DNA from: Alphaproteobacteria bacterium
Lineage (GTDB): Bacteria; Pseudomonadota; Alphaproteobacteria; UBA7985; JAUIBT01
DNA length: 45,049 nucleotides
NCBI GenBank assembly: GCA_030428565.1
Contig: JAUIDR010000024.1
Location: 1-45,049, forward strand
Direction of reading: 5' to 3'
Shown here piece after piece: positions 1-13,678 of this stretch (positions within the stretch are counted from its first letter, which is position 1; each line of letters begins with the position of its first letter). Both the position numbers and the translations under genes were made by a program. A model generated the notes under the pieces. The model searched no databases, was not told the DNA's origin, and was given only the letters and a program-made list of their open reading frames with translations.

Positions 1-111
1 GGCGCACGAACTTTCACTGATATGTTCCACGCCCTCACAGAAATCTGTGACCTCTTCTCACCGGAGGAGTGTTGGAATTACTTCAAAGCTGCTGGATATG
101 TCTCAGGTTAA
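1..111 (+). CDS. IS630-family transposase, C-terminal fragment
   Basis: The window opens inside a reading frame that runs 36 codons to a TAA at 109-111. The last residues (pattern ICDLFSPEECWNYFKAAGY) match the conserved C-terminal tail of IS630-family DDE transposases, where an ICDLY-type stretch is followed by an ECWNFFKAAGY-type ending. The catalytic part lies outside the window, so it cannot be said whether the element is intact. No clear terminal inverted repeat could be placed after the stop. The family call rests on recognition of the tail motif only. Confidence 0.7.
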   Translation, partial: GARTFTDMFHALTEICDLFSPEECWNYFKAAGYVSG

Positions 112-609
112 AGGCCGGAGGCTCTAGCGCCCTGGAGAGCGGCTGTTGTTGGTAAGGCTGCGGCCGTCGTCGCTAGCGCTTGCGTTTGTCGTACAATGGT
201 GCCGCGCTATGGGGCCGAAGGGTGACGCTGCAAGCCTGGGCCGGTTGCTTTGGACGCGGTGTCGATGGTCCGCAGCCAGTATGGGGCTGGGCACGGCCAG
301 GTGCGCATTAGGCTGTATTGGCCCATGACAGTGCCCCTGAAACGAAGCCACGAAAAAAGGGCCAGAGCGCAAGGCCCAGGCCCTTCATAATCCAGACCCT
401 TTATAACTCGGGCCCAGTAAAAACAGACGCAGCTCAGACGTAGACGCTCAATCCGGCCAATTTTTCGGTCGATCTGCAAGCACCGGGACGGCACTAGGCG
501 TTACCGGGACGTCAAAAGGCGGCACCAGGCCCCAATCGCCGAGTCTCCAACGATTGGGCAGTAATTGGGGCCTGTCTTTGAAGCCGCCGCCCGAGGACTC
601 AGTTAGATC
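112..609. other. intergenic stretch after the IS fragment
   Basis: About 500 bases with no convincing gene. The short open frames on both strands lack a ribosome site and resemble no known protein. The only clear structure is the inverted repeat at 526-574. The right end of the IS630 element should fall in the first few dozen bases but was not resolved. Confidence 0.5.
526..574 (-). terminator. inverted repeat 3' of the peptidoglycan-binding protein gene
   Basis: An 11-base perfect inverted repeat (CAGGCCCCAAT at 526-536, ATTGGGGCCTG at 564-574) encloses a 27-base loop. A second, 8-base pairing overlaps it (CCCAATCG 531-538 with CGATTGGG 551-558), so the two stems are mutually exclusive. It lies just downstream of the minus-strand gene ending at 610. 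No U-tract follows, so a classic intrinsic terminator is uncertain. Confidence 0.4.
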
Positions 610-924
610 TTAGTAGCAAGCTGCGATAGCGGCACGGGTGCGGGGACCAACGACACCGTCAATCAAGCCGGGGTTACAGCCCATGCGGCGCAAATCGCGC
701 TGTAGGCGCATGACCTGCCACTTGCTGAGACCGTGGCCATGGCCGATATACTTGTGGCCGTGACCATGACCGTGCGCTTCGCCGGTAATGACATGACCGA
801 CGACACCAGCACCCAAAATAATGGAGACCAGCTCAAGGGTTGTCAGAGTAATAGACGCAGATGCCGCGACCGGCGCTGCTGCAATGCCCGCCGCCAAGGC
901 TGCGGCCAGAAAGATCTTCTTCAT
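610..924 (-). CDS. secreted peptidoglycan-binding-domain protein, His/Gly-rich
   Basis: A 104-residue protein. Residues 1-23 (MKKIFLAAALAAG...) form a classical Sec signal peptide. A hydrophobic stretch (about 28-43) and a His-Gly-rich segment (about 47-65, HGHGHGH and HGHG) follow. The C-terminus (about 67-104) matches the PG_binding_1 fold: LQRDLRRMGCNPG, then IDGVVGPRTRAAI. Such domains usually anchor proteins to cell-wall peptidoglycan. The frame is open upstream to 1047, but the ATG at 924 is chosen because AGGAG sits about 8 bases before it and the signal peptide starts there. The His-rich stretch could bind metal; that is inference. No catalytic domain is present. Confidence 0.75.
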   Translation of the reverse strand: MKKIFLAAALAAGIAAAPVAASASITLTTLELVSIILGAGVVGHVITGEAHGHGHGHKYIGHGHGLSKWQVMRLQRDLRRMGCNPGLIDGVVGPRTRAAIAACY

Positions 925-1098
925 ATGCCAAATCTCCTGTTGGATCAGATCATTCAGCCTAGCATGTTTCTTGAGCGAGGCAAAAGGAAGCTGCCCGCGT
1001 TTGCAAATTGAGGCGACATTTTTCGAATTGCTGTAAGTGCTGGCCAAAACAGAGGCGGATGGTTTCTTAACCTATCGGTTGGTTGGCCTTGGTTTTTG

Positions 1099-2190
1099 TT
1101 AAAAACGTCTCGCGAGCCACGGCATGGCAAAGAAGATCAGCAAAATACGAACCGTATGATGGAAGGAGACAAAGGCCAGATCAAAGCCGAAGATGAGGGC
1201 CAGCAAGGTCACTTCGTAAAGCCCGCCCGGCAAGAAGGCCAACAGTGCTTGCATGAAGGACAGACCAAAGGCCAAAGTCACCGCAACCGCGATCACCGTA
1301 TAGCTGGTCAGCACCAGGCCCGCGTTGACCAATCCATCCACGATATGGCCAGCGACCTCGCGAAACGGCACCCGCGCTAAGCGCGCGCCAATGCCGCCGC
1401 CGACCGCAATTTGGGCCAGCATAATAAATTCACGAACCCGCGGGATTTCGATCAAGCCCAGCGCATGGCCGATCGCAGACAAGAACAATGGCCCCAGCAG
1501 GTGCGGCATCGGCAAACGTAACAGCCGTGCGGCGCCATAGCCCAATAGGGCACAGGCCACAAAGGCCGCGGCGGTCTCTGCCGACAGTCCCCAAAAGTGG
1601 GGCAGCGCGTTTTGCACACGATAGGAGGCCGCGACGCCTTCAAAGCCGGTTACGGCCATCAACAACAGCGGCGCAAGGCCCACGACCAACGAGACTCGGG
1701 TCAGGTGGCACAAGGCCACAACGTAGTCTTTGTCGGTGTAGGTCTTGGCGATCAAGATAATCTCGGCCTGGCCGCCGGGTAGGCTGCACAGCAGGGCGAG
1801 GCGGGGCTCATAGCCGCGAATGCGGACAAGATAGCTCCAGCCAATGGCTGTCGCGATGGTGGTGGCCACAATCATGGCCAGGATGGTCGGCCACCAATGC
1901 AGCGCTTGGCTAAGGAGCTGAGCATTGAATGCCGCCCCGATCATGGTGCCTAGGCCCAGAACCACCGGTACGTGAAACCAACGCGCGATGCCTAAATGGG
2001 GCTGCAGGCCCGGCAACAAGCCGCCAATCAGCCACACGCCAAAGACCGAACCCATCATGTAGGGGGCAGGGACACGCAAATTGCTGAACACCCATCCTGC
2101 CGCCAGCGCAATGCCGCCAGTGATCAACAAGCGCTTGAGGTCTTCCAGGTGGCGGGCGAGCATAGGGGAGGGGCTGGTGATTGGAGGCAC
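1099..2190 (-). CDS. AbrB-family membrane protein (putative transporter)
   Basis: A 363-residue polytopic membrane protein with about ten hydrophobic segments in two similar halves. It matches the Gram-negative 'AbrB duplication' family, sometimes misnamed ammonia monooxygenase regulator. Family-typical stretches include RVPAPYMMGSVFG in the first half, LPHLLGPLFLSAIGHALG-like sequence in the second, and SLPGGQAEI and FLPGGLYEV in the two halves. Function in this family is not established. The start is uncertain: GTG at 2190 and an in-frame ATG at 2163 (MLARHLEDL) are both possible and neither has a good ribosome site. It is separated from its neighbours and probably transcribed alone. Confidence 0.75.
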   Translation of the reverse strand: MPPITSPSPMLARHLEDLKRLLITGGIALAAGWVFSNLRVPAPYMMGSVFGVWLIGGLLPGLQPHLGIARWFHVPVVLGLGTMIGAAFNAQLLSQALHWWPTILAMIVATTIATAIGWSYLVRIRGYEPRLALLCSLPGGQAEIILIAKTYTDKDYVVALCHLTRVSLVVGLAPLLLMAVTGFEGVAASYRVQNALPHFWGLSAETAAAFVACALLGYGAARLLRLPMPHLLGPLFLSAIGHALGLIEIPRVREFIMLAQIAVGGGIGARLARVPFREVAGHIVDGLVNAGLVLTSYTVIAVAVTLAFGLSFMQALLAFLPGGLYEVTLLALIFGFDLAFVSFHHTVRILLIFFAMPWLARRF

Positions 2191-2515
2191 GGTTAATTTG
2201 GCTGCGTAAATTTATCAGTCTAAATTTAGCCGGGGCCGCTTAGCCATCACAAAGTCGGTCAGGGCAAAGTCGGTCAGGGCAAAGTCGGTCAGGGCAAAGT
2301 CGGTCAGGGCATGAAGGGATTGAGAGCCGACGGGCGGCTTCGTTTCACCCAGGCGGCGCCACGCCAATCGCTACGGCTTAGAAATTCCATGGTTTTTCTG
2401 TGATCTATCGACGACAGCAGCGGTCCTTGCGACGCGGCGCTAGTCTTACGCCCAATTTGTGGCGAAAGCAAAAGCAAAGCGCGGATTTTGCTCGCAGGTC
2501 ATGGCCTTTGAAAGC
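2191..2515. other. intergenic stretch with minisatellite
   Basis: No gene was seen in these 325 bases. They contain the four-copy 15-bp tandem repeat at 2251-2310 and, close to the regulator stop, an imperfect hairpin in minus-strand sense around 2460-2495 without a clear U-tract. Confidence 0.5.
2251..2310. repeat. tandem repeat, 15 bp x 4
   Basis: Four exact head-to-tail copies of AAAGTCGGTCAGGGC, at 2251, 2266, 2281 and 2296. They lie in the gap between the AbrB-like gene and the phosphate island. No spacer sequence lies between copies, so this is a minisatellite and not a CRISPR array. Confidence 0.95.
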
Positions 2516-3289
2516 CTAGCTCTGGCTCTCGACCGCGTAGCCGATACCGCGCACGCTACGCACCAGGTCGGGCTCGCCGTCCTTGGTCAGCTCTTTGCGT
2601 AGGTTGCGGATCAGGCCGTCAAGCTTACGCTGCGCGGCGGCGTCCAAGTCCGCGTTGGGATCACCATTGCGCGCGGCCAAGCCCTTTTCGGCAAGCTTGG
2701 CGAACAGCTCTTGGCGTTGAAAGATGCGACCAGGCCGTTCCAACATGACCTGTAGCAGTAGCCGTCCGGCGTCGCTTAGCGCCAATGCCCGCGCCCCCCG
2801 GCGCGCTTCGGCGCTGTCGGGTTTCATCACCAAATCGTCCAACACCAGCGTGCCGCGCGAGCGCCGGGGGTCCAAAATGCGCAGGTGTTGGCGGATCAAG
2901 TGGAACAACTCGCTCATGGCGAAGGGCTTGCGAATATAGGCATCAGCGCCCGCTTTCAGTCCTTTGACCACATCCTCGCTATCGCCGCGGGCGGTGACCA
3001 TCAAAATGGGCACCTTTTTCAAGGTGGGGTGTGCGCGCAAGGTCTTGCAGACATTAATGCCCGAGCGTCCCGGCAGCATCCAGTCCAGCAAGATCAGGTC
3101 TGGGGCCTGCTTCAGCGATTCAGACAGGGCCGAATCGCCGTCGCCACAGACCACGACTTCGTAGCCTTCCTTGCTCAGGTTATAGCGCAGCAGCGTGACC
3201 AATGATGGCTCGTCTTCCACCACCATGATACGCGCCAAACTATGCTTTTCGCGGCTATTGCTCGCGTGGTTGTCGCTAGAATCGACCAA
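2516..3289 (-). CDS. OmpR/PhoB-type response regulator with atypical DNA-binding domain
   Basis: A 257-residue two-component regulator. The receiver (about 19-135) has the acidic pocket (VEDE 24-27), phospho-acceptor Asp69 in LILLDWMLPG and Lys121 in RKPF. The C-terminal winged helix (about 145-257) ends normally (LVRSVRGIGYAVE). Between its second and third helices, where PhoB has LLxxVWG and a short loop, it has a longer charged stretch (about 200-225, including AARNGDPNADLDAAA). The recognition helix (KLDGLIRNLRKEL) also differs from the canonical HIRRLRK type. It is the last gene of the minus-strand pstS-phoR arm, 63 bases after the kinase, so it is the kinase's nearest partner. The start is a TTG at 3289; an ATG at 3226 would cut off the N-terminal part of the receiver. 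Confidence 0.85.
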   Translation of the reverse strand: MVDSSDNHASNSREKHSLARIMVVEDEPSLVTLLRYNLSKEGYEVVVCGDGDSALSESLKQAPDLILLDWMLPGRSGINVCKTLRAHPTLKKVPILMVTARGDSEDVVKGLKAGADAYIRKPFAMSELFHLIRQHLRILDPRRSRGTLVLDDLVMKPDSAEARRGARALALSDAGRLLLQVMLERPGRIFQRQELFAKLAEKGLAARNGDPNADLDAAAQRKLDGLIRNLRKELTKDGEPDLVRSVRGIGYAVESQS

Positions 3290-3352
3290 GGGGCCCTCGT
3301 ATCTTGGTTCCTGGCATTGGCAGGCATGCGCGCGCCGTCTAGGGAGCGGATC

Positions 3353-4468
3353 TTAGAGCGCCGCCGGAGCCTCGTTAAGGGGGTGAGGCAACAAGACATC
3401 AAAAGTCGAGCCGACGTCTTGTTCGCTGGAGATCAGCAAGCGCCCGCCGTGCCGGTAGAGAATGTGTTTGACAATGGCCAACCCCAAGCCCGTGCCGCCG
3501 ATCTGGCGTGAGCGCGCTTTGTCGACCCGGTAGAATCGTTCGGTCAAGCGGCTTAAGTGCTTGGGGGCGATGCCCGGCGACTGGTCGCAGACCGCGATCG
3601 AGTGCAAGCTGGGGTCGTCAGGGTAAGGGCGGGATTTCAGCGTAATGGTGGAATCGGGGTGCCCGTACTTGATGGCGTTTTCGACCAGATTAGAAAAGAC
3701 CTGCCCCAATTGATCCTTGTCGCCCACGACCTCGGTGCTCCAGTCGCCTTCGAAGGCGAAGCGAATGCCGCGTTCGCGCGCGGTCAGTGCGAGCGAGTCG
3801 GTGACGGGGAATACCACTTCTTGCAGCTGCACGACGGTGCTGGGTGATTCGCCCTCTTCCATCTCGATCTTGGATAGCGACAAGAGGTCGTCGATGAGAC
3901 GCGACATACGCCGGGCTTGCTCGGCCATGATACCCAAAAACTGTTCGCGGGCATCTTCATCGTCCTTGGCGGGGCCTTGCAGGGTCTCGACAAACCCCAT
4001 CAAGCTGGCCAATGGCGTGCGCAGCTCGTGACTGGCAGCGGCGACAAAGTCGGTGCGGGTCTTGTCAAGCTGGCGCTGGGCGGTCATGTCGTGGACGCTC
4101 CACAAGACCTGCGGGGCCTCGGCTCGCTTGTCGCGGAAACAGACCAGGCGTAGATTGAGATAGCGCCGCTTCAGCCCGCCCCACTTGATGTTCACTTCTT
4201 GCTGAAGGCCTTCTTCGCACTGCGCTTCATCGGACACGACGCGCTGAAAAGCCGCCTGGACCTCGGGCAGATCCAACAAGGTCAGAGCGTTGCCGCCGAT
4301 TTTCATGCCAACAAAGACCGTTGATGCACTGGGATTGTGCCACAAGACTTCGCCGGTGGCGTCCGTGTGGATCAAGGGATCGGGCAGGTGCGCCAAAACG
4401 GCTTGCAAATCGCGAAGCTTCACAAAGTGGTCCGGGTTCAAAGGATCAAAAGCGCCTGGGAATAGCAC
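3353..4468 (-). CDS. phoR: PhoR-like sensor histidine kinase, no membrane segment
   Basis: A 371-residue kinase. An N-terminal PAS-like domain (about 20-130) precedes the HisKA domain with His147 in SHELRTPL. The ATPase domain has an N-box (NLVENAIKYG 260-269), a G1-type motif (DQSPGI 295-300, with Ser-Pro where Gly-x-Gly is usual) and a G2 motif (GGTGLGL 324-330). The sequence resembles PhoR, which phosphorylates PhoB under phosphate limitation. Unlike typical PhoR it has no transmembrane helix, so it should be cytoplasmic. The GTG start at 4468 has AAGGAAAG about 9 bases upstream. It lies downstream of pstS with a terminator-like hairpin between them, and upstream of the atypical regulator. 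Confidence 0.87.
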   Translation of the reverse strand: MLFPGAFDPLNPDHFVKLRDLQAVLAHLPDPLIHTDATGEVLWHNPSASTVFVGMKIGGNALTLLDLPEVQAAFQRVVSDEAQCEEGLQQEVNIKWGGLKRRYLNLRLVCFRDKRAEAPQVLWSVHDMTAQRQLDKTRTDFVAAASHELRTPLASLMGFVETLQGPAKDDEDAREQFLGIMAEQARRMSRLIDDLLSLSKIEMEEGESPSTVVQLQEVVFPVTDSLALTARERGIRFAFEGDWSTEVVGDKDQLGQVFSNLVENAIKYGHPDSTITLKSRPYPDDPSLHSIAVCDQSPGIAPKHLSRLTERFYRVDKARSRQIGGTGLGLAIVKHILYRHGGRLLISSEQDVGSTFDVLLPHPLNEAPAAL

Positions 4469-4590
4469 GGTCTGGGCTTTCCTTCAATTTATCAAGCAAA
4501 TCGGCCCTTTTCGGCGCGGGCCCGATTTCGCTCAGAGGGCAGCACGCAAGGGGCGCGCTTGTCGCGATTTGGAAGCAGGTGGCGGTGTGC

Positions 4591-4620
4591 AAAAAGGGCC
4601 CCAAAAAGATTTGGCGCCCT
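4591..4620 (-). terminator. intrinsic terminator between pstS and phoR
   Basis: Read on the minus strand, an 8-base stem with one mismatch (bases 4613-4620 with 4595-4602, loop of about 10) runs into a run of five U (4591-4595). It lies about 60 bases after the pstS stop and 120 before the phoR start. A partly effective terminator here would let PstS be made in excess over the kinase. The effect is inferred from position. Confidence 0.6.
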
Positions 4621-4676
4621 TCTTGCAATCTAGTGGCGGTAAGCGTCGCAGCTTACCTAGTTGCATACCTGGCAGC

Positions 4677-5645
4677 TTACATGGCGAACTTGCCGTTGGC
4701 AGAGCCCAGAACCGGTGCCTGACGCTCGCTGTCGGGCAGGTTGATCAGGCCCAAGTCGATCAGGTAGCCATCGGGGCCCCAAGTGTTCTCGTTGGTGAAC
4801 TCAAAAACATATTCATCGATGCCCTTGATGACGCCGCGGTGGTCGTTCTTGACGTAGAACCACAGAGAGCGAGAGATGGGGTAATCGCCTGCAGCGATGT
4901 TGTCGAAGGTCGGCTCTACGCCTGCGATCTTCGCACCTTGAACCTGGTCAGAGTTTTGGTCCAGGAATGAGAAGCCCGCGATACCCAGCAAGCTCTTGTC
5001 CTGAGCCAGCTTTTCAACGATCAGGTTGTCGTTTTCACCAGCCTCGATGTAAGCGCCGTCTTCGCGCAGCTCCAGCGCAACACCAGCGTGCTCAGCCAAC
5101 TTTTCCATAACGATTTCTTCGAAAGCGTCACGGGTGCCAGATGACGGCGGCGGGCCCATGACCTTGATCGCGACATTCGGCAGAGCCGGATTGACGTCGG
5201 ACCAAGTTTTGTTGGGGTTGGCAACCTTTTCGCCGTTGACCACAAGGGTTGCGTTCAGTGCGTTGAACAGATCTTCTTTGGTCAGGTCAAGGGCCTCGGC
5301 ATCAACTGAGGACATGATAGAGATGCCGTCGAAGCCGATTTTAACTTCGGTGACGTTGGTCACGCCATTATCGGCGCACAGCTTGATTTCTTTGTCTTTA
5401 ACGCGGCGCGATGCGTTGGTGATGTCGGGGGTGCCTTCACCGACGCCTGCGCAAAACAGCTTCATGCCACCGCCAGAGCCGGTCGATTCGATGGTCGCTG
5501 CCATGCCGGTTTTGTTTGCGAACTGCTCGATAACGGCTGATGCGAAGGGAAATACGGTTGAAGAACCGACGATACGCAGATCGCGGGCTGAAGCTGAGGT
5601 GGCAACGGCTAGTACAGCGGCGCCGAGGATGAGAGCCTTTTGCAT
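4677..5645 (-). CDS. pstS: periplasmic phosphate-binding protein PstS
   Basis: A 322-residue precursor with a Sec signal peptide (1-20, ending ASA). The mature protein shows the phosphate-binding signatures of PstS: GSSTVFPFA near 27, a Gly-rich loop STGSGGGMK near 54-62, DITNASR near 74-80, and SSGTRDAFE near 168-176. It delivers phosphate in the periplasm to the PstCAB permease. A GGAGAC ribosome site precedes the ATG. It is transcribed divergently from pstCAB-phoB, and a Pho-box-like repeat in its own orientation lies about 80 bases upstream. Codon use is biased toward a restricted set, as expected for an abundant periplasmic protein. Confidence 0.96.
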   Translation of the reverse strand: MQKALILGAAVLAVATSASARDLRIVGSSTVFPFASAVIEQFANKTGMAATIESTGSGGGMKLFCAGVGEGTPDITNASRRVKDKEIKLCADNGVTNVTEVKIGFDGISIMSSVDAEALDLTKEDLFNALNATLVVNGEKVANPNKTWSDVNPALPNVAIKVMGPPPSSGTRDAFEEIVMEKLAEHAGVALELREDGAYIEAGENDNLIVEKLAQDKSLLGIAGFSFLDQNSDQVQGAKIAGVEPTFDNIAAGDYPISRSLWFYVKNDHRGVIKGIDEYVFEFTNENTWGPDGYLIDLGLINLPDSERQAPVLGSANGKFAM

Positions 5646-5719
5646 GGCTTGTCTCCAAATGTGTCATGTCAAAGAACGCGCGCCACTTGGCGCCGTCGAG
5701 GCCTGTGGTAGACCGGCCT

Positions 5720-5736
5720 TGTTACAGCTGTGTTAC
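5720..5736 (-). promoter_or_regulatory. Pho box, oriented toward pstS
   Basis: On the minus strand GTAACA is repeated directly with an 11-base period (plus-strand TGTTAC at 5720-5725 and 5731-5736). Direct repeats one helical turn apart, separated by about 4-5 bases, are the known architecture of PhoB-binding Pho boxes. It lies about 80 bases upstream of pstS, pointing toward it. PhoB control of pstS is inferred. Confidence 0.75.
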
Positions 5737-5912
5737 GACGGGGCTGTTGTGGCTAAAAAAAAGCGGGGCGGTCCAGCAGGCAGGCAAATTAAACTTAAAG
5801 CGTTGGTGCTTGGATGTCGCGCCTAGCTGAAACTTGAACCGACCCGACTTATCCAAAGGTGCGCCTTGGTTACCCCCAAGGTGGCGCAAGGCCCTTGCGT
5901 TCAAGGGGGCAT

Positions 5913-5929
5913 GTAACATAACCGTAACA
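5913..5929 (+). promoter_or_regulatory. Pho box, oriented toward pstCAB-phoB
   Basis: GTAACA occurs at 5913-5918 and again at 5924-5929, the same word and 11-base period as the box facing pstS but on the opposite strand. It lies about 155 bases upstream of the pstC start. Two matching boxes, one per arm, support coordinated PhoB control of both transcripts and autoregulation of phoB. Confidence 0.78.
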
Positions 5930-6084
5930 CCAGCTCGCTACCCGTTCGCCCTAACGACCAGACGAAAGATGTCGGCTGTCGCTCAGATCTTCTGGCTCAA
6001 AGTTTGTGACCGAGTGCCTGAAATCGGATGCGATGCAAGCCTTGCTCGCCAAATCGGTGGGCGCTCGCCGACAGAGAAGAGACC

Positions 6085-7653
6085 ATGCTGCTAACCTTGT
6101 TTCTTGCCGTCCTGCTGCTTGTCACTTTGCTGGGCTATTTCGTGGGACAAAGGCGAGCGTTGAGCGCGGTCCGTGCCGATCAAGCCAAGCGCAGCCTGTC
6201 GACCAACAACTACGGCTTGGCCGCCTTGCCCGGTTTCTATGGCCAGCGGCTGGCCTACTTGGTCTTTATTCCCCCCTTTTTGTTGCTTCTGCTTTGGTGG
6301 TTGTTCGAGCCGCGCTTGGCGGATCTGCTGATCCACTGGAACTTGCCCGATGCGGTGGCCGAGGCCACCCGCGGGGAGCAGGTGGGCATTATCTCCGCCA
6401 TCCGTGAGGCCGCGTCGAGCCAAGGCGGCGCGCTGAGCGGTGATCTGGCAGGGGGCGATTATCAAGCCGCGGTCAGCGCGCTGCAGGCCCTCAATTGGAT
6501 CAATAGCACCGGAATATATTTGCTGTTGGCTGCGTTGTTATTGGTGCTGTTGGTCCTAGGCATCGCCAGCTCTAAGCCAACGTTCCGCGCCCGCAAAGCT
6601 GTTGAGAACTGGAACCGCTGGGTCATGTTTGCAGCTGCCGCTGTGGCGATTTTGATTACAGTTGGCATCGTTATGTCGTTGCTGTTCCAGGCGCTGTCTT
6701 TCTTTCAGGCTTATAGCTGGCTGGATTTTCTAACCGGCACCCGTTGGTCGCCCGGCGGCGCTTTCCAGCGCGGCTATGGCGAAGAGGCTACCGGCGGCGT
6801 CTTTGGGGTGGTGCCCTTGATCACCGGTACGCTGTTGATCGTCGTCATTGCGATGTCGGTTGCGGTGCCGGTGGGGCTCATGTCAGCGATCTACCTAGGC
6901 GAATACGCCTCAAATCGTGTGCGAGCCTTTGCCAAGCCCATTATGGAGATCTTGGCTGGCATCCCGACCGTGGTCTATGGCCTGTTCGCAGCGCTGACCT
7001 TTACGCCCTGGCTGTCGGCGGGGGTGGATGCACTGAACGGCCTGTTGAACCTGCCCGTACTAAAGAGCGTCACGCTGCTGATTGCGAACCTATTTGTCGC
7101 TCTGGGCAACGTGGTGATCTGGCTGGGCGGCACAGTCTCAGGCTCTGCGCCGCAACTTATGGCCTATTTCAGCGAGGTCAGGTTAGAGACCGGTTCTGAT
7201 ATCGCGCTAGCCGCCGGCGTGGTCATGGGGACAATGATTATCCCCTTTGTTGCCTCCTTGTCCGACGACGCCATTAGGGCGGTGCCGGACAGCCTGCGCG
7301 ATGGCGCTTTGGGCTTGGGCTCGACCCGTTCTGAGATGATGCGCCGGGTCATCCTGCCCGCAGCGTTACCGGGGATCGCTGGTGGCATCTTGCTGGCCGT
7401 CTCGCGGGCTATCGGTGAGACCATGATCGTGGTCATGGCGGCGGGTTCCTTTGCTTACCTGACTTTCAATCCCTTGGGCTCGGTCTCGACCTTTACCGTT
7501 CAGATCAATGCCCTGTTGACCGGCGATTTGGATTTCGGCGGCACCAAGGTGCAAGCCGCCTTTGCCATTGGTATTTTCTTGTTTTTCATCACCCTAGCAC
7601 TCAACACCTTGGCGCTGGCTATCGTGCGGCGCTTTAGAGAAGAATACGACTGA
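6085..7653 (+). CDS. pstC: phosphate ABC transporter permease PstC
   Basis: A 522-residue inner-membrane permease. The N-terminal 180 residues add extra membrane segments and a periplasmic loop, as in the long PstC type common in alphaproteobacteria. The C-terminal half is the BPD_transp_1 permease domain, with SIYLGEYAS, the EILAGIPTVVYG stretch and an EAA-type loop (DGALGLGSTRSEMMRRVILP). It forms the phosphate channel with PstA. The frame is open 19 codons upstream, but ATG 6085 (MLLTLFLAV) is preferred: it starts with a membrane helix and has AGAGAAGAG just before it. It heads the pstC-pstA-pstB-phoB operon behind a Pho box. Confidence 0.95.
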   Translation: MLLTLFLAVLLLVTLLGYFVGQRRALSAVRADQAKRSLSTNNYGLAALPGFYGQRLAYLVFIPPFLLLLLWWLFEPRLADLLIHWNLPDAVAEATRGEQVGIISAIREAASSQGGALSGDLAGGDYQAAVSALQALNWINSTGIYLLLAALLLVLLVLGIASSKPTFRARKAVENWNRWVMFAAAAVAILITVGIVMSLLFQALSFFQAYSWLDFLTGTRWSPGGAFQRGYGEEATGGVFGVVPLITGTLLIVVIAMSVAVPVGLMSAIYLGEYASNRVRAFAKPIMEILAGIPTVVYGLFAALTFTPWLSAGVDALNGLLNLPVLKSVTLLIANLFVALGNVVIWLGGTVSGSAPQLMAYFSEVRLETGSDIALAAGVVMGTMIIPFVASLSDDAIRAVPDSLRDGALGLGSTRSEMMRRVILPAALPGIAGGILLAVSRAIGETMIVVMAAGSFAYLTFNPLGSVSTFTVQINALLTGDLDFGGTKVQAAFAIGIFLFFITLALNTLALAIVRRFREEYD

Positions 7654-7663
7654 GGCGCGCGGC

Positions 7664-8953
7664 ATGGTTCAGATTATCGACCCCAAACTCAAAGATGCCG
7701 ATTATCAGCGGGCGATGACGCTGCGGCGGCGCAACAAGGGTAAGCGCTTCCAGGCCTGGGGTATCGCCGCGTTGGCGGTGGCTGGGCTCATGCTGGCGGC
7801 GCTGCTGTACTCGATTGTCTCAAACGGTGTGCGCGGTCTGATGGAAGATCGCATTACGGTCGAGGTCTATTTCGATCCTGAGAAGATCGACCCCCGCGAC
7901 AGCGGCGACCTGGCGGTCATGCGCATGTTTAACTTTGATACCCTGGTCTATCCAGTGCTCTACGAGGCCCTAGATATCAAAGCGCGCGGCCGCTCAGATC
8001 GCGATAAGCGCCGCAAGGTTAAGCAGCTCATCGGTCTTGGGGCGTCAAACCAGCTCCGCGAAATGATCGTGCGGCAGGTGGGCGTTGATCCCGTCACCGA
8101 AGATCCGATTTTGGTGTCCGGCGGGACCCAGCTCGGTGAGCGCGTCACGGTCGAATTGACTGCCCTGTCAACCGCGTCGAACCCCTATACCCAGACCTTG
8201 CGCGAGCTGGGCTATCTGAACACCCGCTTCAATGGCGACTTCTTTACCGGTGTGAACTCGAACGATCCTGGTTACTACGGCATTTTGGATGCTCTGGTCG
8301 GCTCGTTCTGGACGCTCTTGGTCTGTTTCTTGGCCTCTTTTCCGGTGGGCGTCTTGGCTGCGGTCTATCTGGAAGAATTTGCCCCGCGCAACCTGATTAC
8401 TGACTTTATCGAGGTCAATATCAACAACTTGGCCGCCGTTCCTTCGATCGTCTTCGGTCTGATGGGGGCCTTTGTCTTTATCTATGTGTTCGGCATGCCA
8501 GGTGGGACCGCGCTCGTCGGCGGCCTGGTGCTGTCGCTTTTGACCTTGCCGACGATCATCGTTGCCGCGCGCGCCGCCATCCGCTCTGTGCCGGGTTCGT
8601 ATCGTGAGGCGGCGCTTGGCCTGGGTGCTTCGCGCCAGCAAGCCATGTGGTCTTTTGTGCTGCCCTCGGCCATGCCGGGGATTATCACCGGTACAATCAT
8701 TGGCTTGGCGGGCGCTTTGGGCGAGACCGCGCCTTTGTTGTTCATTGGTATGGTGGGCTTCCAGTCCGGCATTCCGCTGACGCCGCTGGATGGGACGCCT
8801 TCGCTGGCGGTCGGGGTTTTCAACGCCTTCGGCTCGCAGTTCGACGAGCTGAAAAACCAACTTTCCAATTCGACCATTATCGTGCTGCTGGTCTTACTGA
8901 TGCTGTTGAACGGCACCGCGGCCTATCTGCGTTATCGCTCTGAAAAGAGCTAA
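7664..8953 (+). CDS. pstA: phosphate ABC transporter permease PstA
   Basis: A 429-residue permease, 10 bases after pstC. The N-terminus (about 1-200) has one membrane helix and a large soluble part resembling the DUF3333 extension of alphaproteobacterial PstA. The C-terminus is a five- to six-helix permease domain with VYLEEFAPRN, NNLAAVPSIVFGLMG, an EAA loop (REAALGLGASRQQAMW) and the GALGETAPLLF stretch typical of PstA. It pairs with PstC and is driven by PstB. No strong ribosome site is visible, so translation is probably coupled to pstC. Confidence 0.95.
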   Translation: MVQIIDPKLKDADYQRAMTLRRRNKGKRFQAWGIAALAVAGLMLAALLYSIVSNGVRGLMEDRITVEVYFDPEKIDPRDSGDLAVMRMFNFDTLVYPVLYEALDIKARGRSDRDKRRKVKQLIGLGASNQLREMIVRQVGVDPVTEDPILVSGGTQLGERVTVELTALSTASNPYTQTLRELGYLNTRFNGDFFTGVNSNDPGYYGILDALVGSFWTLLVCFLASFPVGVLAAVYLEEFAPRNLITDFIEVNINNLAAVPSIVFGLMGAFVFIYVFGMPGGTALVGGLVLSLLTLPTIIVAARAAIRSVPGSYREAALGLGASRQQAMWSFVLPSAMPGIITGTIIGLAGALGETAPLLFIGMVGFQSGIPLTPLDGTPSLAVGVFNAFGSQFDELKNQLSNSTIIVLLVLLMLLNGTAAYLRYRSEKS

Positions 8954-8971
8954 GAAGGGAACCGGAAATCC

Positions 8972-9763
8972 ATGTCTGAAGACCAAGTCCGTATGTCATG
9001 CCGGAACGTCAATGTTGCCTACAGCGGCAACTTGGCGATCAAGAACGTGTCGATGGATATCATGTCCAAGAAGGTGACGGCATTTATCGGCCCGTCGGGT
9101 TGCGGCAAGTCCACTTTTTTGCGCGCGCTGAACCGCATGAACGACACCGTTGATGGCTGCGAAGTCACGGGCGAGATCACGCTGGACGGCAACGACATTT
9201 ACGCCAAGGACATGGATACAGTGTTCTTGCGCCAATGGGTCGGCATGGTGTTTCAAAAACCCAATCCCTTCCCCAAGTCGATCTATGAAAACGTGGCCTA
9301 TGGCCCGCGCATCCACGGCTTGTTTCGCACCAAGTCAGAGTTGGACGATATCGTTGAGCAGTCGCTGATTGGTGCCGGCCTCTGGGATGAGGTCAAAGAC
9401 CGTTTGCGCAATCCGGGCACCGGCCTGTCGGGCGGCCAGCAACAGCGCTTGTGCATCGCGCGGGCAATTGCGGTCAATCCTGAGGTCATTTTGATGGACG
9501 AACCGGCGTCGGCCTTGGACCCCATCGCGACCCGCAAAATTGAAGAGTTGATCCACAAACTGGCGCAAAACTACACCATCGTCATTGTCACCCACTCTAT
9601 GGCGCAAGCCCAGCGTGTCGCAGACAAGACCGCCTTTTTCTATGCCGTGCCCTTGACCGAGCAGGACAATTCGAACCTGATCGAATTTGGCGACACCAAG
9701 CAGATCTTTGACAACCCCGTCGATGATCGCACGCGACAATACGTTGAAGGGGCCTTCGGTTAA
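8972..9763 (+). CDS. pstB: phosphate ABC transporter ATPase PstB
   Basis: A 263-residue ATPase of normal family length. Walker A is GPSGCGKST (40-48), the signature is LSGGQQQR (152-159), Walker B is VILMDEP (172-178), and the switch His208 lies in THS. The Q-loop reads [10 protein letters not shown], the PstB-specific form. It energises phosphate import through PstCA. It begins 18 bases after pstA with AGAAGGGA upstream. In most bacteria phoU follows pstB; here the next gene, 71 bases on, is phoB. Confidence 0.97.
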
Positions 9764-9834
9764 CCGCCTTACCGCCACACCGATTTTCCGGCGCCGTCTT
9801 GACCCTGCCGTTTTGACCTCAGGAGTTTGCCGCT

Positions 9835-10602
9835 ATGCCTGCTGCAAAATCTTCTAACGACGATCCGATGCAAGCGGACACCGCCCGCCCCCTCGGCCAA
9901 GAGCGGCGTTCGTCGCGCGCCCCCAGCGTACTGATTGTCGAAGACGAGCGGGCGATTGCCGAACTAATCCGCTATAACCTGCAAAAAAACGGCTATCACT
10001 GCCAGGTCGTTCACGATGGCGATGAAGCTTTGCTGGCGGTCGAAGAGTTGGTCCCCGATCTGGTGCTGCTGGATTGGATGCTGCCCGAGGTCTCGGGTAT
10101 CGAAATCTGCCGTCGTCTGCGCGGACGAACGGCGACGCGCAATCTGCCCATCATCATGGTCACCGCCAGGGGTGAAGAGCAGGATTTGGTGCGCGGCCTT
10201 CGCGAAGGGGCCGACGACTATTTGCGCAAACCCTTCAGCGTCAATGAATTGATTGCACGGGTGGATGCCGCGCTGCGGCGAACCCGCGTTTCCCACCAGC
10301 TTCATGTGTTGGAGGTGGGCGATATCGTGCTGGATACCGAGGCGGTCACGGTCTTCCGCGCAGGCCAGCGCTTGCACCTAGCGCCGACAGAATTTCGCCT
10401 GCTGCAGGCCCTCATGCAGAGCCCAGGGCGCGTGCTGTCTCGTGACACTTTATTGAGCCGGGTCTGGGGTCTGGAGAGCGACGTTGAAGCACGCACGGTC
10501 GATGTGCATGTGCGCCGCTTACGCAAGGTTCTGAACGCGGGTGAGCAGCCGGATTATATCCGAACCGTGCGCGGCGTGGGCTATTCGATCGAGCGGGATT
10601 AG
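9835..10602 (+). CDS. phoB: phosphate regulon response regulator PhoB
   Basis: A 255-residue OmpR-family activator. After a hydrophilic N-terminal extension of about 30 residues comes the receiver, with VEDE at 35-38, phospho-acceptor Asp80 (LVLLDWMLPEVSG) and Lys132 (RKPF). The winged helix is canonical for PhoB: LAPTEFRLL, SRVWG, ARTVDVHVRRLRKVL and IRTVRGVGYS. When phosphorylated it should bind the Pho boxes in this island. The ATG at 9835 has CAGGAG about 9 bases upstream; ATG 9868 is a weaker alternative. It closes the pstCAB operon, while the kinase gene lies in the opposite arm. Confidence 0.94.
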   Translation: MPAAKSSNDDPMQADTARPLGQERRSSRAPSVLIVEDERAIAELIRYNLQKNGYHCQVVHDGDEALLAVEELVPDLVLLDWMLPEVSGIEICRRLRGRTATRNLPIIMVTARGEEQDLVRGLREGADDYLRKPFSVNELIARVDAALRRTRVSHQLHVLEVGDIVLDTEAVTVFRAGQRLHLAPTEFRLLQALMQSPGRVLSRDTLLSRVWGLESDVEARTVDVHVRRLRKVLNAGEQPDYIRTVRGVGYSIERD

Positions 10603-10623
10603 ACGAAAGCCGCGGCCAAAGAT

Positions 10624-10740
10624 GGCGGCCCAGACAGGAGGCCCAGACAGGCGGCCCAGACAGGAGGCCCGGAAAGGCGACCCGGAAAGGCGGCCCAGAC
10701 AGGCGACCCGGAAAGGCGACCCGGAAAGGCGGCTTGCGGG
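10624..10740. repeat. tandem repeat, 13 bp x about 8.5
   Basis: Head-to-tail 13-bp units of the type GGCGGCCCAGACA, with variants GGAGGCCCAGACA, GGAGGCCCGGAAA and GGCGACCCGGAAA. Units start at 10624 and every 13 bases to 10715, with a decayed copy at 10728. It fills most of the gap between phoB and miaA. The unit is not a multiple of three and no gene covers it. Confidence 0.92.
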
Positions 10741-10768
10741 GCGTGGTGTTTGGCTTTAGGTCTGGGGC

Positions 10769-11701
10769 ATGACCCGGGCAACTTCATCCCCTTCAATTCC
10801 AGTCTTGATGGGCCCCACCGCCAGCGGCAAGACGGCGGTGTCGATCCAGCTCGCCCAGGCGCTGGGGGCGGAAATTATCAACGCCGACAGCATGCAGATC
10901 TATGCCGATTTGCGCACCATCACCGCGCGTCCCGAGCCGGATGAAGAGGCGCAGGTGCCCCATCATCTGTTTGGCATCTTGGATGCAAGCGATGTTTGCA
11001 GTGCCCAGCGCTGGGTTGACCTTGCGCGCGCCTGCATCGCGGACATTGAAGCGCGGGGACGGCGGGCGCTCATCGTCGGCGGCACCGGCTTTTACATTCG
11101 CGCGATGACCGAGGGGCTGGACGCGATACCGGAAATATCAGCGGACGTTCGCCACAAGGTGCGCGATCTTTCCAGCGACAATGCTTACGCCATGTTGGCC
11201 GCGGCTGACCCTGTCATGGCGGCGCGCTTGGCCCCGCGTGACGGCCAAAGGGTGCGGCGCGCGCTTGAAGTCCTGCGCCAGACCGGGCGCTCTCTGGCCG
11301 ATTTTCAGACCGGCCAAGCGATGGGACTAGATCGCGATTTTCGCCTCTTCAAGCTCTTGCCGGACCGCCAGGCCCTCTATGATCGTTGTGATTTGCGCTT
11401 GGCGCGCATGTGGCCCACCGCCATCGCCGAAGTCGAAGCCTACCTGTCGCGTGACCCGCATCCCGACTGGCCGTTGACCAAAGCCATCGGCGTGCCGCAG
11501 ATCGCGGACTATCTGGCCGGATGCCTGACCTGCGACCAAGCGTTGCAAGCCGCGCAGCAAAAGACCCGCAATTATGCCAAGCGCCAACTGACCTGGCTGC
11601 GGAATCAGCACGAAAGCGCAAGAAATATTACGTTTTCTTATAATGGTGAGCAATATATGCAAAGTACGGTCGATTTCATGATGGCAAATCTTACAGATTG
11701 A
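10769..11701 (+). CDS. miaA: tRNA dimethylallyltransferase MiaA
   Basis: A 310-residue enzyme that adds the dimethylallyl group to the N6 of A37 in tRNAs reading UNN codons. The P-loop is GPTASGKT (15-22). The catalytic and substrate region INADSMQIYADL follows at 37-48, then GGTGFYIRAM near 103. The tRNA-binding tail has KTRNYAKRQLTWLRNQ. Length is normal. It is followed by the ilv genes, an order found in several alphaproteobacteria. The upstream gap is almost entirely the 13-bp minisatellite, so its promoter is unclear. Confidence 0.96.
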   Translation: MTRATSSPSIPVLMGPTASGKTAVSIQLAQALGAEIINADSMQIYADLRTITARPEPDEEAQVPHHLFGILDASDVCSAQRWVDLARACIADIEARGRRALIVGGTGFYIRAMTEGLDAIPEISADVRHKVRDLSSDNAYAMLAAADPVMAARLAPRDGQRVRRALEVLRQTGRSLADFQTGQAMGLDRDFRLFKLLPDRQALYDRCDLRLARMWPTAIAEVEAYLSRDPHPDWPLTKAIGVPQIADYLAGCLTCDQALQAAQQKTRNYAKRQLTWLRNQHESARNITFSYNGEQYMQSTVDFMMANLTD

Positions 11702-11743
11702 GGCTTGACGCGTCTCCAGACTCGCTTTAGTAGGTATAGCAAC

Positions 11744-11787
11744 AGGTCTGAATGCTAGGTGAAGTATGTCGTCTAGTCGTCAGACCT
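11744..11787 (+). promoter_or_regulatory. inverted repeat in the ilvB leader
   Basis: A perfect 8-base inverted repeat (AGGTCTGA 11744-11751, TCAGACCT 11780-11787) with a 28-base loop, followed by ATTTT. It could be a weak terminator for miaA or part of an attenuation structure for ilvB, because it overlaps the candidate leader peptide at 11752. Its role is undecided. Confidence 0.4.
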
Positions 11788-11802
11788 ATTTTCATGTCAT
11801 GA
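11752..11802 (+). CDS. candidate ilv leader peptide, 16 aa
   Basis: A short ATG-to-TGA frame reading MLGEVCRLVVRPIFMS, 59 bases before the ilvB start. Six of sixteen residues are Leu, Val or Ile, including an LVV run. That is the kind of composition used by leader peptides that sense branched-chain aminoacyl-tRNA. It sits inside the inverted repeat 11744-11787. The ribosome site is weak and no clear downstream terminator with a U-tract was found, so it remains a candidate. Confidence 0.3.
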   Translation: MLGEVCRLVVRPIFMS

Positions 11803-11860
11803 GATTTCTGAGCTCTTCTGGTCCCATTTTTGTACCAGCGGGCTTTTAGCGATAGATACG

Positions 11861-13678
11861 ATGGAGAAGGCTGTGCAGAGCGCACAAGCAACGAATAGCG
11901 AGCAACAGCTCTTGGACGAGCCGCGATGCGGCGCGCGCATTATCATTGATTGTTTGCAAGAGCAGGGCGTGGACGTCATTTTCGGCTACCCTGGGGGAGC
12001 CGTGCTCCCGCTCTACGACGAGATTTTCAAGCAAAACCAAATTCGTCACATCCTGGTGCGCCACGAGCAAGCCGCAGTACACGCCGCTGAGGGCTATGCG
12101 CGCTCGACCGGTAAGGTGGGTGTGGTGCTCGTGACGTCAGGCCCGGGCGCTACCAACGCCGTCACCGGCCTGACCGACGCCTTGATGGACTCGATTCCCG
12201 TCGTCTGCCTGACCGGCCAGGTGCCCAGCTATATGATCGGCAACGACGCCTTCCAAGAGGCTGACACCACCGGCATTACGCGCCCTTGCAGCAAGCACAA
12301 TTACCTTGTCGATCGCGTCGATCAGCTCAGCGAGAAAATCCACGAGGCCTTTGATGTCGCCCGCAATGGACGCCCTGGCCCCGTCGTCGTCGATTTGCCC
12401 AAAGATGTGCAGATGGCCGAGACCCGCGTTTACAAGTCCAAGGAGCAGGTCAACCGCCGGTCCTTCCAGGTCGTGACGCAACCAGCCGCCAGCGGCATTG
12501 AAGAGGCCATCGAGGCACTGTCGAAAGCCAAGCGTCCGATCATCTATGCAGGCGGCGGTGTGATTAACTCGGGCCCGCAAGCGGCGATGGCTCTGCGCCA
12601 GTTTGCCAAAATGACCGGTATGCCCGTCACGCAAACCCTGATGGCACTGGGGGCCTTCCCGGCCAGCAACGAGCAGTTCTTGGGCATGCTGGGCATGCAC
12701 GGCACCTATGAAGCCAATCTGGCCATGTATAATTGCGACGTCATGCTGAACATCGGCGCCCGATTTGACGACCGCATTACCGGCAAGTTGGACGAGTTCT
12801 CCCCCAACTCAACCAAGATTCACTGTGATATCGACCCCTCGTCGATCAACAAATCGGTCATGGTTGACATCCCGGTCATTGGCGATGCCGGTGAGATCCT
12901 CAACGCGCTAATTGCGGCCTGGAAGTCGGGCAGCCATAGCCTAGACGCCACAGCGATGAAGAAGTGGTGGGCGCAGATTGATGCCTGGCGTTCGCGCGAT
13001 TGCTTGGCCTTCAACCAGCCCAGCGGCGAGGCCGAAATTCGGCCTCAGCACGCGATTAAGCGCTTAAACGAGGCGCTCAAGGGCAAAGATTACTACATCT
13101 CGACCGAGGTCGGCCAGCACCAGATGTGGGCGGCCCAGTACCTGGACTTTGAAGAGCCCAATCGTTGGCTAACGTCGGGTGGGCTGGGGACCATGGGCTA
13201 CGGCCTGCCAGCGGCGGTCGGCGCGCAGATCGCCCATCCTGAGAGCTTGTGTATCGACGTAGCCGGTGAAGCCTCGATCTTGATGAATATTCAAGAGCTG
13301 TCGACCGTCATGCAGTACCGTTTGCCGGTCAAAGTCTTCATCTTGAACAATCAGTGGATGGGCATGGTGCGCCAGTGGCAAGAGCTGCTGCACGGCGAAC
13401 GCTACTCAGAGTCCTATACCGATTCCTTGCCTAATTTCGTCAAGTTGGCCGAAGCCTTCGGCGGCAAGGGTATCCGCATCACCAAAGAGAGCGAATTGGA
13501 TCAAGCCATCGCCGATATGATGGCGTATGACGGTCCGGTTGTGGTGGATTGCTGCGTGGTGCGCAACGAGAATTGCTTCCCCATGATCCCGTCGGGCAAG
13601 CCGCACTATGACATGATCCTGAACGACGAAGACAAAGCCGCCAAGCCGATCGAAGGCGCTGGCCGCAACATGGTATAG
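11861..13678 (+). CDS. ilvB: acetolactate synthase large subunit
   Basis: A 605-residue thiamine-diphosphate enzyme for the first common step of valine, leucine and isoleucine synthesis. The N-terminal domain has GYPGGAVLPLYDEI and the catalytic Glu in RHEQAAVHAAEGYAR (Glu69). The central FAD-type domain has NIGARFDDRITGKL. The C-terminal TPP domain has GGLGTMGYGLPAA, AGEAS in place of the GDAS/GDGS motif, and NNQWMGMVRQWQ. The AGEAS form is, to my knowledge, common in alphaproteobacteria. The ribosome site before ATG 11861 is weak. It is followed by ilvH after 11 bases. Confidence 0.96.
   Translation: MEKAVQSAQATNSEQQLLDEPRCGARIIIDCLQEQGVDVIFGYPGGAVLPLYDEIFKQNQIRHILVRHEQAAVHAAEGYARSTGKVGVVLVTSGPGATNAVTGLTDALMDSIPVVCLTGQVPSYMIGNDAFQEADTTGITRPCSKHNYLVDRVDQLSEKIHEAFDVARNGRPGPVVVDLPKDVQMAETRVYKSKEQVNRRSFQVVTQPAASGIEEAIEALSKAKRPIIYAGGGVINSGPQAAMALRQFAKMTGMPVTQTLMALGAFPASNEQFLGMLGMHGTYEANLAMYNCDVMLNIGARFDDRITGKLDEFSPNSTKIHCDIDPSSINKSVMVDIPVIGDAGEILNALIAAWKSGSHSLDATAMKKWWAQIDAWRSRDCLAFNQPSGEAEIRPQHAIKRLNEALKGKDYYISTEVGQHQMWAAQYLDFEEPNRWLTSGGLGTMGYGLPAAVGAQIAHPESLCIDVAGEASILMNIQELSTVMQYRLPVKVFILNNQWMGMVRQWQELLHGERYSESYTDSLPNFVKLAEAFGGKGIRITKESELDQAIADMMAYDGPVVVDCCVVRNENCFPMIPSGKPHYDMILNDEDKAAKPIEGAGRNMV

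Follow-up and report, generated by a model that had tools for sequence, protein, structure and literature searches.

A diverged phoB paralogue with an altered dimer face and DNA-binding domain encoded behind phoR in an alphaproteobacterial pho locus

The window analysed here, a stretch of 45,049 nucleotides of contig JAUIDR010000024.1 from an alphaproteobacterial genome (assembly GCA_030428565.1), contains a divergent pho locus. The minus arm consists of pstS, phoR and the gene of a response regulator, hereafter RR2, and the plus arm (6028-10602) consists of pstC, pstA, pstB and phoB (Table 1). The first-pass annotation placed this regulator directly behind the kinase and the true PhoB in the other arm, and this arrangement is confirmed: RR2 follows phoR at a spacing of 63 bp, phoB ends the divergent pstCAB arm, and the same layout, with an intact RR2 frame, is present in all three genomes of the genus, namely the window's own (G000), G001 and G002. 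Two Pho-box-like direct repeats are located in the gap between pstS and pstC, and the alignment of this gap shows both of them in the genus genomes. These are the only sites within positions 1-12000 of the window with at most one mismatch to the scan pattern, which was derived in part from the window itself. Because the repeats face both arms, RR2 probably belongs to the PhoB-controlled pstS-phoR-RR2 arm. No second conserved DNA motif for RR2 is observed in the locus, where the scan addressed Pho-box-like repeats alone.

Table 1. Genes, domains and repeats of the pho locus, in coordinates of the window
Feature	Position	Strand	Basis
RR2, OmpR/PhoB-type response regulator, diverged phoB paralogue	2516..3289	-	257 aa ORF from TTG; PF00072 and PF00486 over cut-off
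RR2 receiver domain, residues 19-138	2876..3235	-	Asp69 and Lys121 kept; Ala117/Leu131/Ile138 correspond to PhoB 101/115/122
RR2 DNA-binding domain, residues 147-257, predicted winged helix	2519..2851	-	AlphaFold2 model and profile of three orthologues
RR2 long alpha2-alpha3 loop, residues 202-216	2642..2686	-	3/15 positions invariant among orthologues; lower model confidence
RR2 recognition helix, residues 217-234	2588..2641	-	13/18 positions invariant among orthologues; base-contact residues unlike PhoB
phoR-type histidine kinase, PAS + HisKA + HATPase	3353..4468	-	TIGR02966 305.1 bits, cut-off 334.2; hydrophobic segment lacking ahead of the His box
pstS, phosphate-binding protein	4677..5645	-	PF12849 156 bits
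Pho-box-like direct repeat facing pstS-phoR-RR2	5720..5737	-	Pattern scan; conserved in gap alignment
Pho-box-like direct repeat facing pstCAB-phoB	5912..5929	+	Pattern scan; conserved in gap alignment
pstC	6028..7653	+	TIGR02138 251.1 bits; ORF as listed, start possibly further in
pstA	7664..8953	+	TIGR00974 211.2 bits
pstB	8972..9763	+	PF00005 108 bits and operon position
phoB proper	9835..10602	+	TIGR02154 306.8 bits, cut-off 296.2

Several further features surround the locus. In each of the three genus genomes, RR2 is succeeded in the same orientation by an AbrB-family (PF05145) membrane gene (1099-2190, minus strand, in the window), which is a possible co-regulated neighbour. Between these two genes lies a perfect tandem repeat of 15 bp in 4.1 copies (2250-2311), which is absent from the corresponding gap in G001 and G002, and an imperfect tandem repeat with periods of 13 and 39 bp occupies 10624-10733, between phoB and miaA. 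Additionally, G002 carries a second pst set (locus L132, G002:C31, 1108-8204) composed of a PAS-only stub followed by pstS, pstC, pstA, pstB and a second PhoB gene, these five each 76-92% like their counterparts in the window, with an extra stretch ahead of pstC. The stub encodes 85 aa that resemble the start of PhoR (58%) and lacks the kinase portion.

A Pfam search assigns to RR2 a receiver (PF00072, 100.9 bits) and a winged helix (PF00486) whose score of 39.0 bits is weak but over the cut-off of 26.2; the PhoB of the window scores 102.4. The start codon of RR2 is uncertain, as the ORF opens with TTG, the residues before approximately position 17 are unconserved and a further TTG is present at residue 18. 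The best named family match of RR2 is PhoB (TIGR02154), but its score of 195.7 bits lies below the equivalog cut-off of 296.2, which the product of the window's phoB passes with 306.8 bits. This score, in addition to base-contact and sigma-contact residues that differ from those of PhoB, indicates that RR2 should not carry the PhoB name. Judged by its domains, RR2 is a divergent member of the OmpR/PhoB subfamily and not an outsider, despite the loss of the dimer pair described below, because the subfamily is defined by the effector domain.

Strong matches to RR2 are found in three of the 11 genomes of the order, all of them in one genus: the window's own, G001 (85% identity) and G002 (77%). 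The matches in the other eight are at the level of PhoB or lower (at most 197.6 bits, versus 391-550 within the genus). The six loci from the order's other two families all contain pstC, pstA, pstB and one plain PhoB after pstB, with phoR in the same locus in five and pstS in three, and RR2 is absent from each. RR2 is therefore never the ordinary phoB of these relatives, and the idea that it is the ordinary phoB of its own genus was rejected, since the other gene passes TIGR02154 whereas RR2 fails it. A profile of the RR2 DNA-binding domain, built from the three sequences, yields 198-209 bits within the genus; among 385 genomes of the class, an even draw from a larger class that leaves G001 outside, no close homologue is found beyond the genus, the next best match being 61.6 bits. 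A literature search, in which few subscription journals were covered, returned no account of such a regulator.

In a tree of 65 rows from which the variable loop was excluded, the three RR2 sequences are monophyletic (100/100) and form a supported clade (100/93) with four PhoBs of the genus and two PhoBs of family f3. The stem of RR2 is long (1.97 changes per column) and its tips are short (0.06-0.14). The free tree joins RR2 to the f3 PhoB with weak support (90/25) from a bootstrap that had not settled, and both constrained trees score better, the one that unites RR2 with the genus PhoB by 14.98 in likelihood (p-AU 0.771) and the one that unites the genus PhoB with f3 by 1.72. Because of this placement, the long stem and the short tips, RR2 is read as the product of a phoB duplication within the order, with an early phase of rapid change and slower evolution since, and the long branch calls for caution about the exact node and age of the duplication. 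This reading agrees with the description of RR2 as a second PhoB-like regulator.

For comparisons of single residues, a PhoB-type set of 55 rows was used, which comprises 44 thinned rows, E. coli PhoB and 10 PhoBs of the order. The set was thinned to below 75% pairwise identity from 104 proteins, before which three distant sequences (L118, L122 and L125) and five copies of order rows (L031, L032, L034, L037 and L050) were omitted; the 80 compared loci represent close PhoBs chosen by their similarity to RR2. The receiver of RR2 had been described as intact, which is correct for the phosphorylation chemistry: D10, D53, T83 and K105 (PhoB numbering) are kept in all three orthologues, and Asp69 and Lys121 of RR2 are invariant. 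The description fails for the dimer face, where D101, R115 and R122 are replaced by Ala, Leu and Ile in all three. Each of these residues is present in 55/55 PhoB-type rows and in 7/7 of the other OmpR-type regulators of the genome, and none of the 62 other regulators in the alignment departs from the D101-R115 pair. The central charged pair is described as absolutely conserved among the E. coli members and crucial for PhoB dimerization in the account of Gao et al. (PMC2586830), and a second account reports that R115D strongly lowers the DNA binding and activity of PhoB, with partial rescue by D101R (PMC4511772). Positions 91 and 96 also appeared to be RR2-specific losses of the dimer face, but the genus PhoB likewise has L/M and R/K there, and they were discarded.

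The kinase-contact positions 13, 14, 17 and 21, which according to the description of PDB 4ja2 are those changed to rewire a kinase-regulator pair, read SLLN, SLLN and AILN in the three RR2 orthologues and AILN in 4/4 genus PhoBs. SLLN is the commonest type among 44 other PhoBs (9/44), and both types are absent from the genome's seven other OmpR-type regulators. RR2 thus combines the two properties expected of a cognate partner of PhoR, linkage to phoR and PhoB-like docking residues. By score, the genome has a single PhoR-type kinase (832.7 bits, the next at 113). The proposal that one kinase may feed two regulators therefore gains indirect support from the linkage in 3/3 genomes, the sole PhoR-type kinase and the docking residues.

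The DNA-binding domain differs from that of PhoB in both DNA-reading and polymerase-contacting residues. The VWG motif is replaced by LAE, LAS or VFA in the three orthologues, and the segment corresponding to PhoB 183-193, which has 11 residues in 53/55 PhoB-type rows, has 23, 33 and 20. Trp184, Thr194 and Arg201 (each 55/55 in PhoB-type rows) and Val197 (53/55) are all lost in RR2. According to structural accounts, R201 of PhoB forms a hydrogen bond with a guanine, thymines are contacted by T194 and V197, and R219 reaches bases that lie between the half-sites; activation is lost in the mutants W184R, G185R, V190M and D192G, and the residues directed at sigma region 4 include E177 and E191 (PMC3973317; also PMC1885438). 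At these base contacts, RR2 has K in place of T194, G/S/A in place of V197 and N/N/S in place of R201. In the sigma loop, position 184 is A/A/F, 185 is E/S/A, 190 is A/A/S, 191 is R/R/A and positions 177 and 192 are both Q, a placement that is approximate because the alignment inside the long loop is approximate. Neither the Pho-box base contacts T194, V197 and R201 nor the sigma-70 region 4 loop of PhoB is thus recognizable in RR2. The missing VWG loop, the longer loop between the second and third helices and the unusual recognition helix, all noted in the first-pass annotation, are borne out, as is its suggestion that target sequence and polymerase contact may differ.

Four arginines, R176, R193, R203 and R219, which include the backbone-contacting ones, are nevertheless kept in 3/3 orthologues. 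Among the seven OmpR-type paralogues of the same genome, W184 is found in none, positions 194, 197 and 198 vary, and R201 is present in 7/7, so that the differences at 184, 194, 197 and 198 alone say only that RR2 is not PhoB. Winged helices with variable residues in the recognition helix and the transactivation loop are also known from PmrA and ChxR. PmrA resembles RR2 in having Asn at the R201 position and still binds DNA (PMC3973317), and the loop residues of ChxR are stated to be unlike those of OmpR (PMC3960148). RR2 shares with PhoB the receiver and winged helix, the phosphorylation residues, the docking positions, the pho/pst locus and its ancestry, but it is distinguished from PhoB by the absence of the D101-R115 dimer pair, the T194/V197/R201 base contacts and the W184-G185 sigma-70 loop and by a score under the equivalog cut-off.

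The AlphaFold2 model of RR2 (mean pLDDT 89.3, pTM 0.63) contains the ordinary winged-helix elements, with helices at 173-184, 192-201 and 217-234 and wing strands at 243-246 and 250-253. Over the alpha2-alpha3 loop, the pLDDT is 71 and 78 in two ten-residue blocks, compared with 90 in a control model of the window's PhoB built from the same sequences. In this prediction the fold is therefore ordinary, yet the DNA contacts are unlike those of PhoB; the remodelling of the domain that had been suggested stands for its contacts and not for its overall fold. The listed matches of a structure search spanned RR2 17-144, which corresponds to the receiver, so the DNA-binding domain was barely probed. 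Two-domain matches from Foldseek are RpaA, a Thermotoga OmpR/PhoB homologue, KdpE, MtrA and PrrA, and the entries for the DNA-binding domain of PhoB itself are not among the matches listed, which has no bearing on membership.

The constraint on RR2 was estimated from the three orthologues. Between them, the two RR2 domains have a dS of 1.05-2.53, and PhoB, PhoR and PstB one of 0.99-1.43. The receivers of G000 and G001 are 98% identical, but an origin of this identity in gene conversion or recent transfer was rejected, since their dS is as high as that of PhoB, PhoR and PstB. The receiver dN values (0.038/0.105/0.070) are lower than those of PhoB (0.096/0.113/0.127) in all three pairs, at a dS of approximately 1.1-1.3, whereas those of the DNA-binding domain (0.19/0.28/0.24) are about twice those of PhoB (0.08/0.13/0.10). 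The dN/dS of RR2 is low, and that of the DNA-binding domain is well under 1; since two orthologues at 85% and 77% identity keep the gene at low dN/dS, its conservation is more than chance. Within the DNA-binding domain, invariant positions amount to 13/18 in the recognition helix, 13/17 in the wing, 19/36 in alpha1-alpha2 and 3/15 in the loop, and the predicted DNA-facing parts are thus the more constrained ones. The faster evolution of this domain would also be expected of a domain that is losing its role. The greater invariance of the helix and wing relative to alpha1-alpha2 and the loop favours, but does not prove, a domain that still contacts DNA with a changed specificity and is not defunct.

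The remainder of the Pho circuit in this order is also unusual, and the phoU absence described here, like the changed dimer face, goes beyond the first-pass annotation. The gap between pstB and phoB measures -23 to 71 bp in 9/9 loci of the order (9764-9834 in the window; L130, L131 and L133-L138), with no phoU in between. Elsewhere, among 64 loci that carry both genes, it measures 679-837 bp in 53 and 111-586 bp in the other 11, in which the phoB ORF is called from an early start. The PhoU profile PF01895 has no match in the three genus genomes, and its matches in 3/11 genomes of the order are all frames of 546-569 aa on contigs other than that of the pho locus; in a class sample requested at a completeness of at least 90%, PhoU is present in 114/144 genomes. 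The PhoU_div family is absent from the window's own genome. On these profile matches and gap lengths, the order is without a canonical phoU, and Pst-to-PhoR signalling must therefore differ from the E. coli model. A hydrophobic segment before the His box of PhoR is lacking in 8/8 order loci that hold phoR (3353-4468 in the window; L130, L131 and L133-L137), where the best 19-residue hydrophobicity mean is 0.40-1.11, compared with values above 1.6 in 40 of 46 other loci. The PhoR of the order is accordingly predicted to be a soluble PAS-HisKA kinase without an apparent transmembrane segment. Loss of the membrane part of PhoR and loss of PhoU coincide in the order.

Taken as a whole, the sequence data give roughly even chances to a model in which PhoR serves two regulators and RR2 represents a second output that lacks the dimer, the Pho box and the sigma contact of PhoB. 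RR2 probably has a new job that is distinct from that of PhoB. In this model, phoB would have been duplicated inside the order and the RR2 copy retained in one genus beside phoR. Under phosphate limitation, PhoR would phosphorylate both PhoB and RR2; PhoB~P would act at both Pho boxes to activate the pst/pho arms, and RR2~P, which would form no canonical dimer and would not pair with PhoB, would probably bind other DNA in its own way. Lacking the canonical dimer and any recruitment of sigma-70 through the PhoB loop, RR2~P would constitute a second output branch, in which a repressor or modulator is more likely than a PhoB-type activator, and it would also drain phosphoryl groups from PhoR. A more detailed version can be offered only tentatively: the phoB duplicate may have kept its docking to PhoR, re-engineered its dimer face from salt bridges to an Ala/Leu/Ile surface that does not pair with PhoB, and rewritten its DNA reading and polymerase contact, so as to act either as a monomer or through dimers formed by a new code in a Pho circuit without PhoU and with a soluble PhoR, which would split the response without an added kinase.

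In the main rival reading, which is less likely, RR2 would serve as a sink for phosphoryl groups or as a decoy of the kinase, which takes these groups from PhoR or occupies it and thereby sets the threshold of PhoB, while its DNA-binding domain drifts unused. The strongly conserved receiver, the faster divergence of the DNA-binding domain, the lost dimer residues and the PhoB-like docking residues are consistent with this explanation, and precedents exist in kinase-sequestering regulators that raise the threshold (PMC10368727) and in phosphate-sink systems (PMC4214558), in both of which a second receiver competes for one kinase. Those regulators are known from experiment and modelling, whereas RR2 is known from sequence and also has a folded, partly constrained DNA-binding domain; the greater conservation of the recognition helix and wing than of the preceding helices and loop, the backbone-contacting arginines kept in 3/3 orthologues and a dN/dS well under 1 argue against drift. 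It is improbable, though not negligibly so, that RR2 acts by protein contact with PhoB or PhoR through its remodelled alpha4-beta5-alpha5 face, which itself is conserved in 3/3 orthologues within the most constrained domain. An alphaproteobacterial precedent is the three-component system of Brucella, in which CenR is reported to bind EssR via the receivers and to speed phosphotransfer from EssS (PMC10746171). The likeness to RR2 is that two response regulators are tied to one kinase; however, CenR is a non-cognate regulator of the EssR-EssS pair, and RR2 is a PhoB paralogue encoded behind the kinase. Additionally, PhoB dimers depend centrally on the pairing of Asp101 with Arg115, which a PhoB-RR2 pair, with Ala and Leu at these positions in RR2, would be expected to lose on both sides.

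Two explanations that attribute no distinct Pho role to RR2 are much less probable. A redundant, decaying phoB duplicate is very unlikely: the narrow distribution (3/11 order genomes), the long stem and the varying loop length would fit decay, but the frame is intact in 3/3 genomes, dN is low although synonymous sites are near saturation, and the receiver is more constrained than that of PhoB in 3/3 pairs. The least likely explanation is that RR2 is just another OmpR-type regulator, possibly transferred, that adjoins phoR by happenstance. The genome's own paralogues also lack W184 and vary at 194, 197 and 198, and the exact branching is uncertain on account of the long stem, yet RR2 groups with the genus and f3 PhoBs in a supported clade, the likelihood rises by 15 when it is held with the genus PhoB (p-AU 0.771), TIGR02154 is its best named match, its docking residues are PhoB-like, and the 385 class genomes contain no close homologue outside the genus (61.6 versus 198-209 bits).

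RR2 is thus a natural, conserved exception to the charged pair, which shares its locus with phoB, the parent gene that has not changed, and is probably served by the same kinase. It raises the question of how paralogous regulators that share one kinase are insulated from each other and whether regulators of the OmpR type can function when the canonical dimer or the sigma-70 loop is missing. These questions gain interest from their setting, a Pho system that lacks canonical PhoU and whose PhoR shows no apparent membrane segment.
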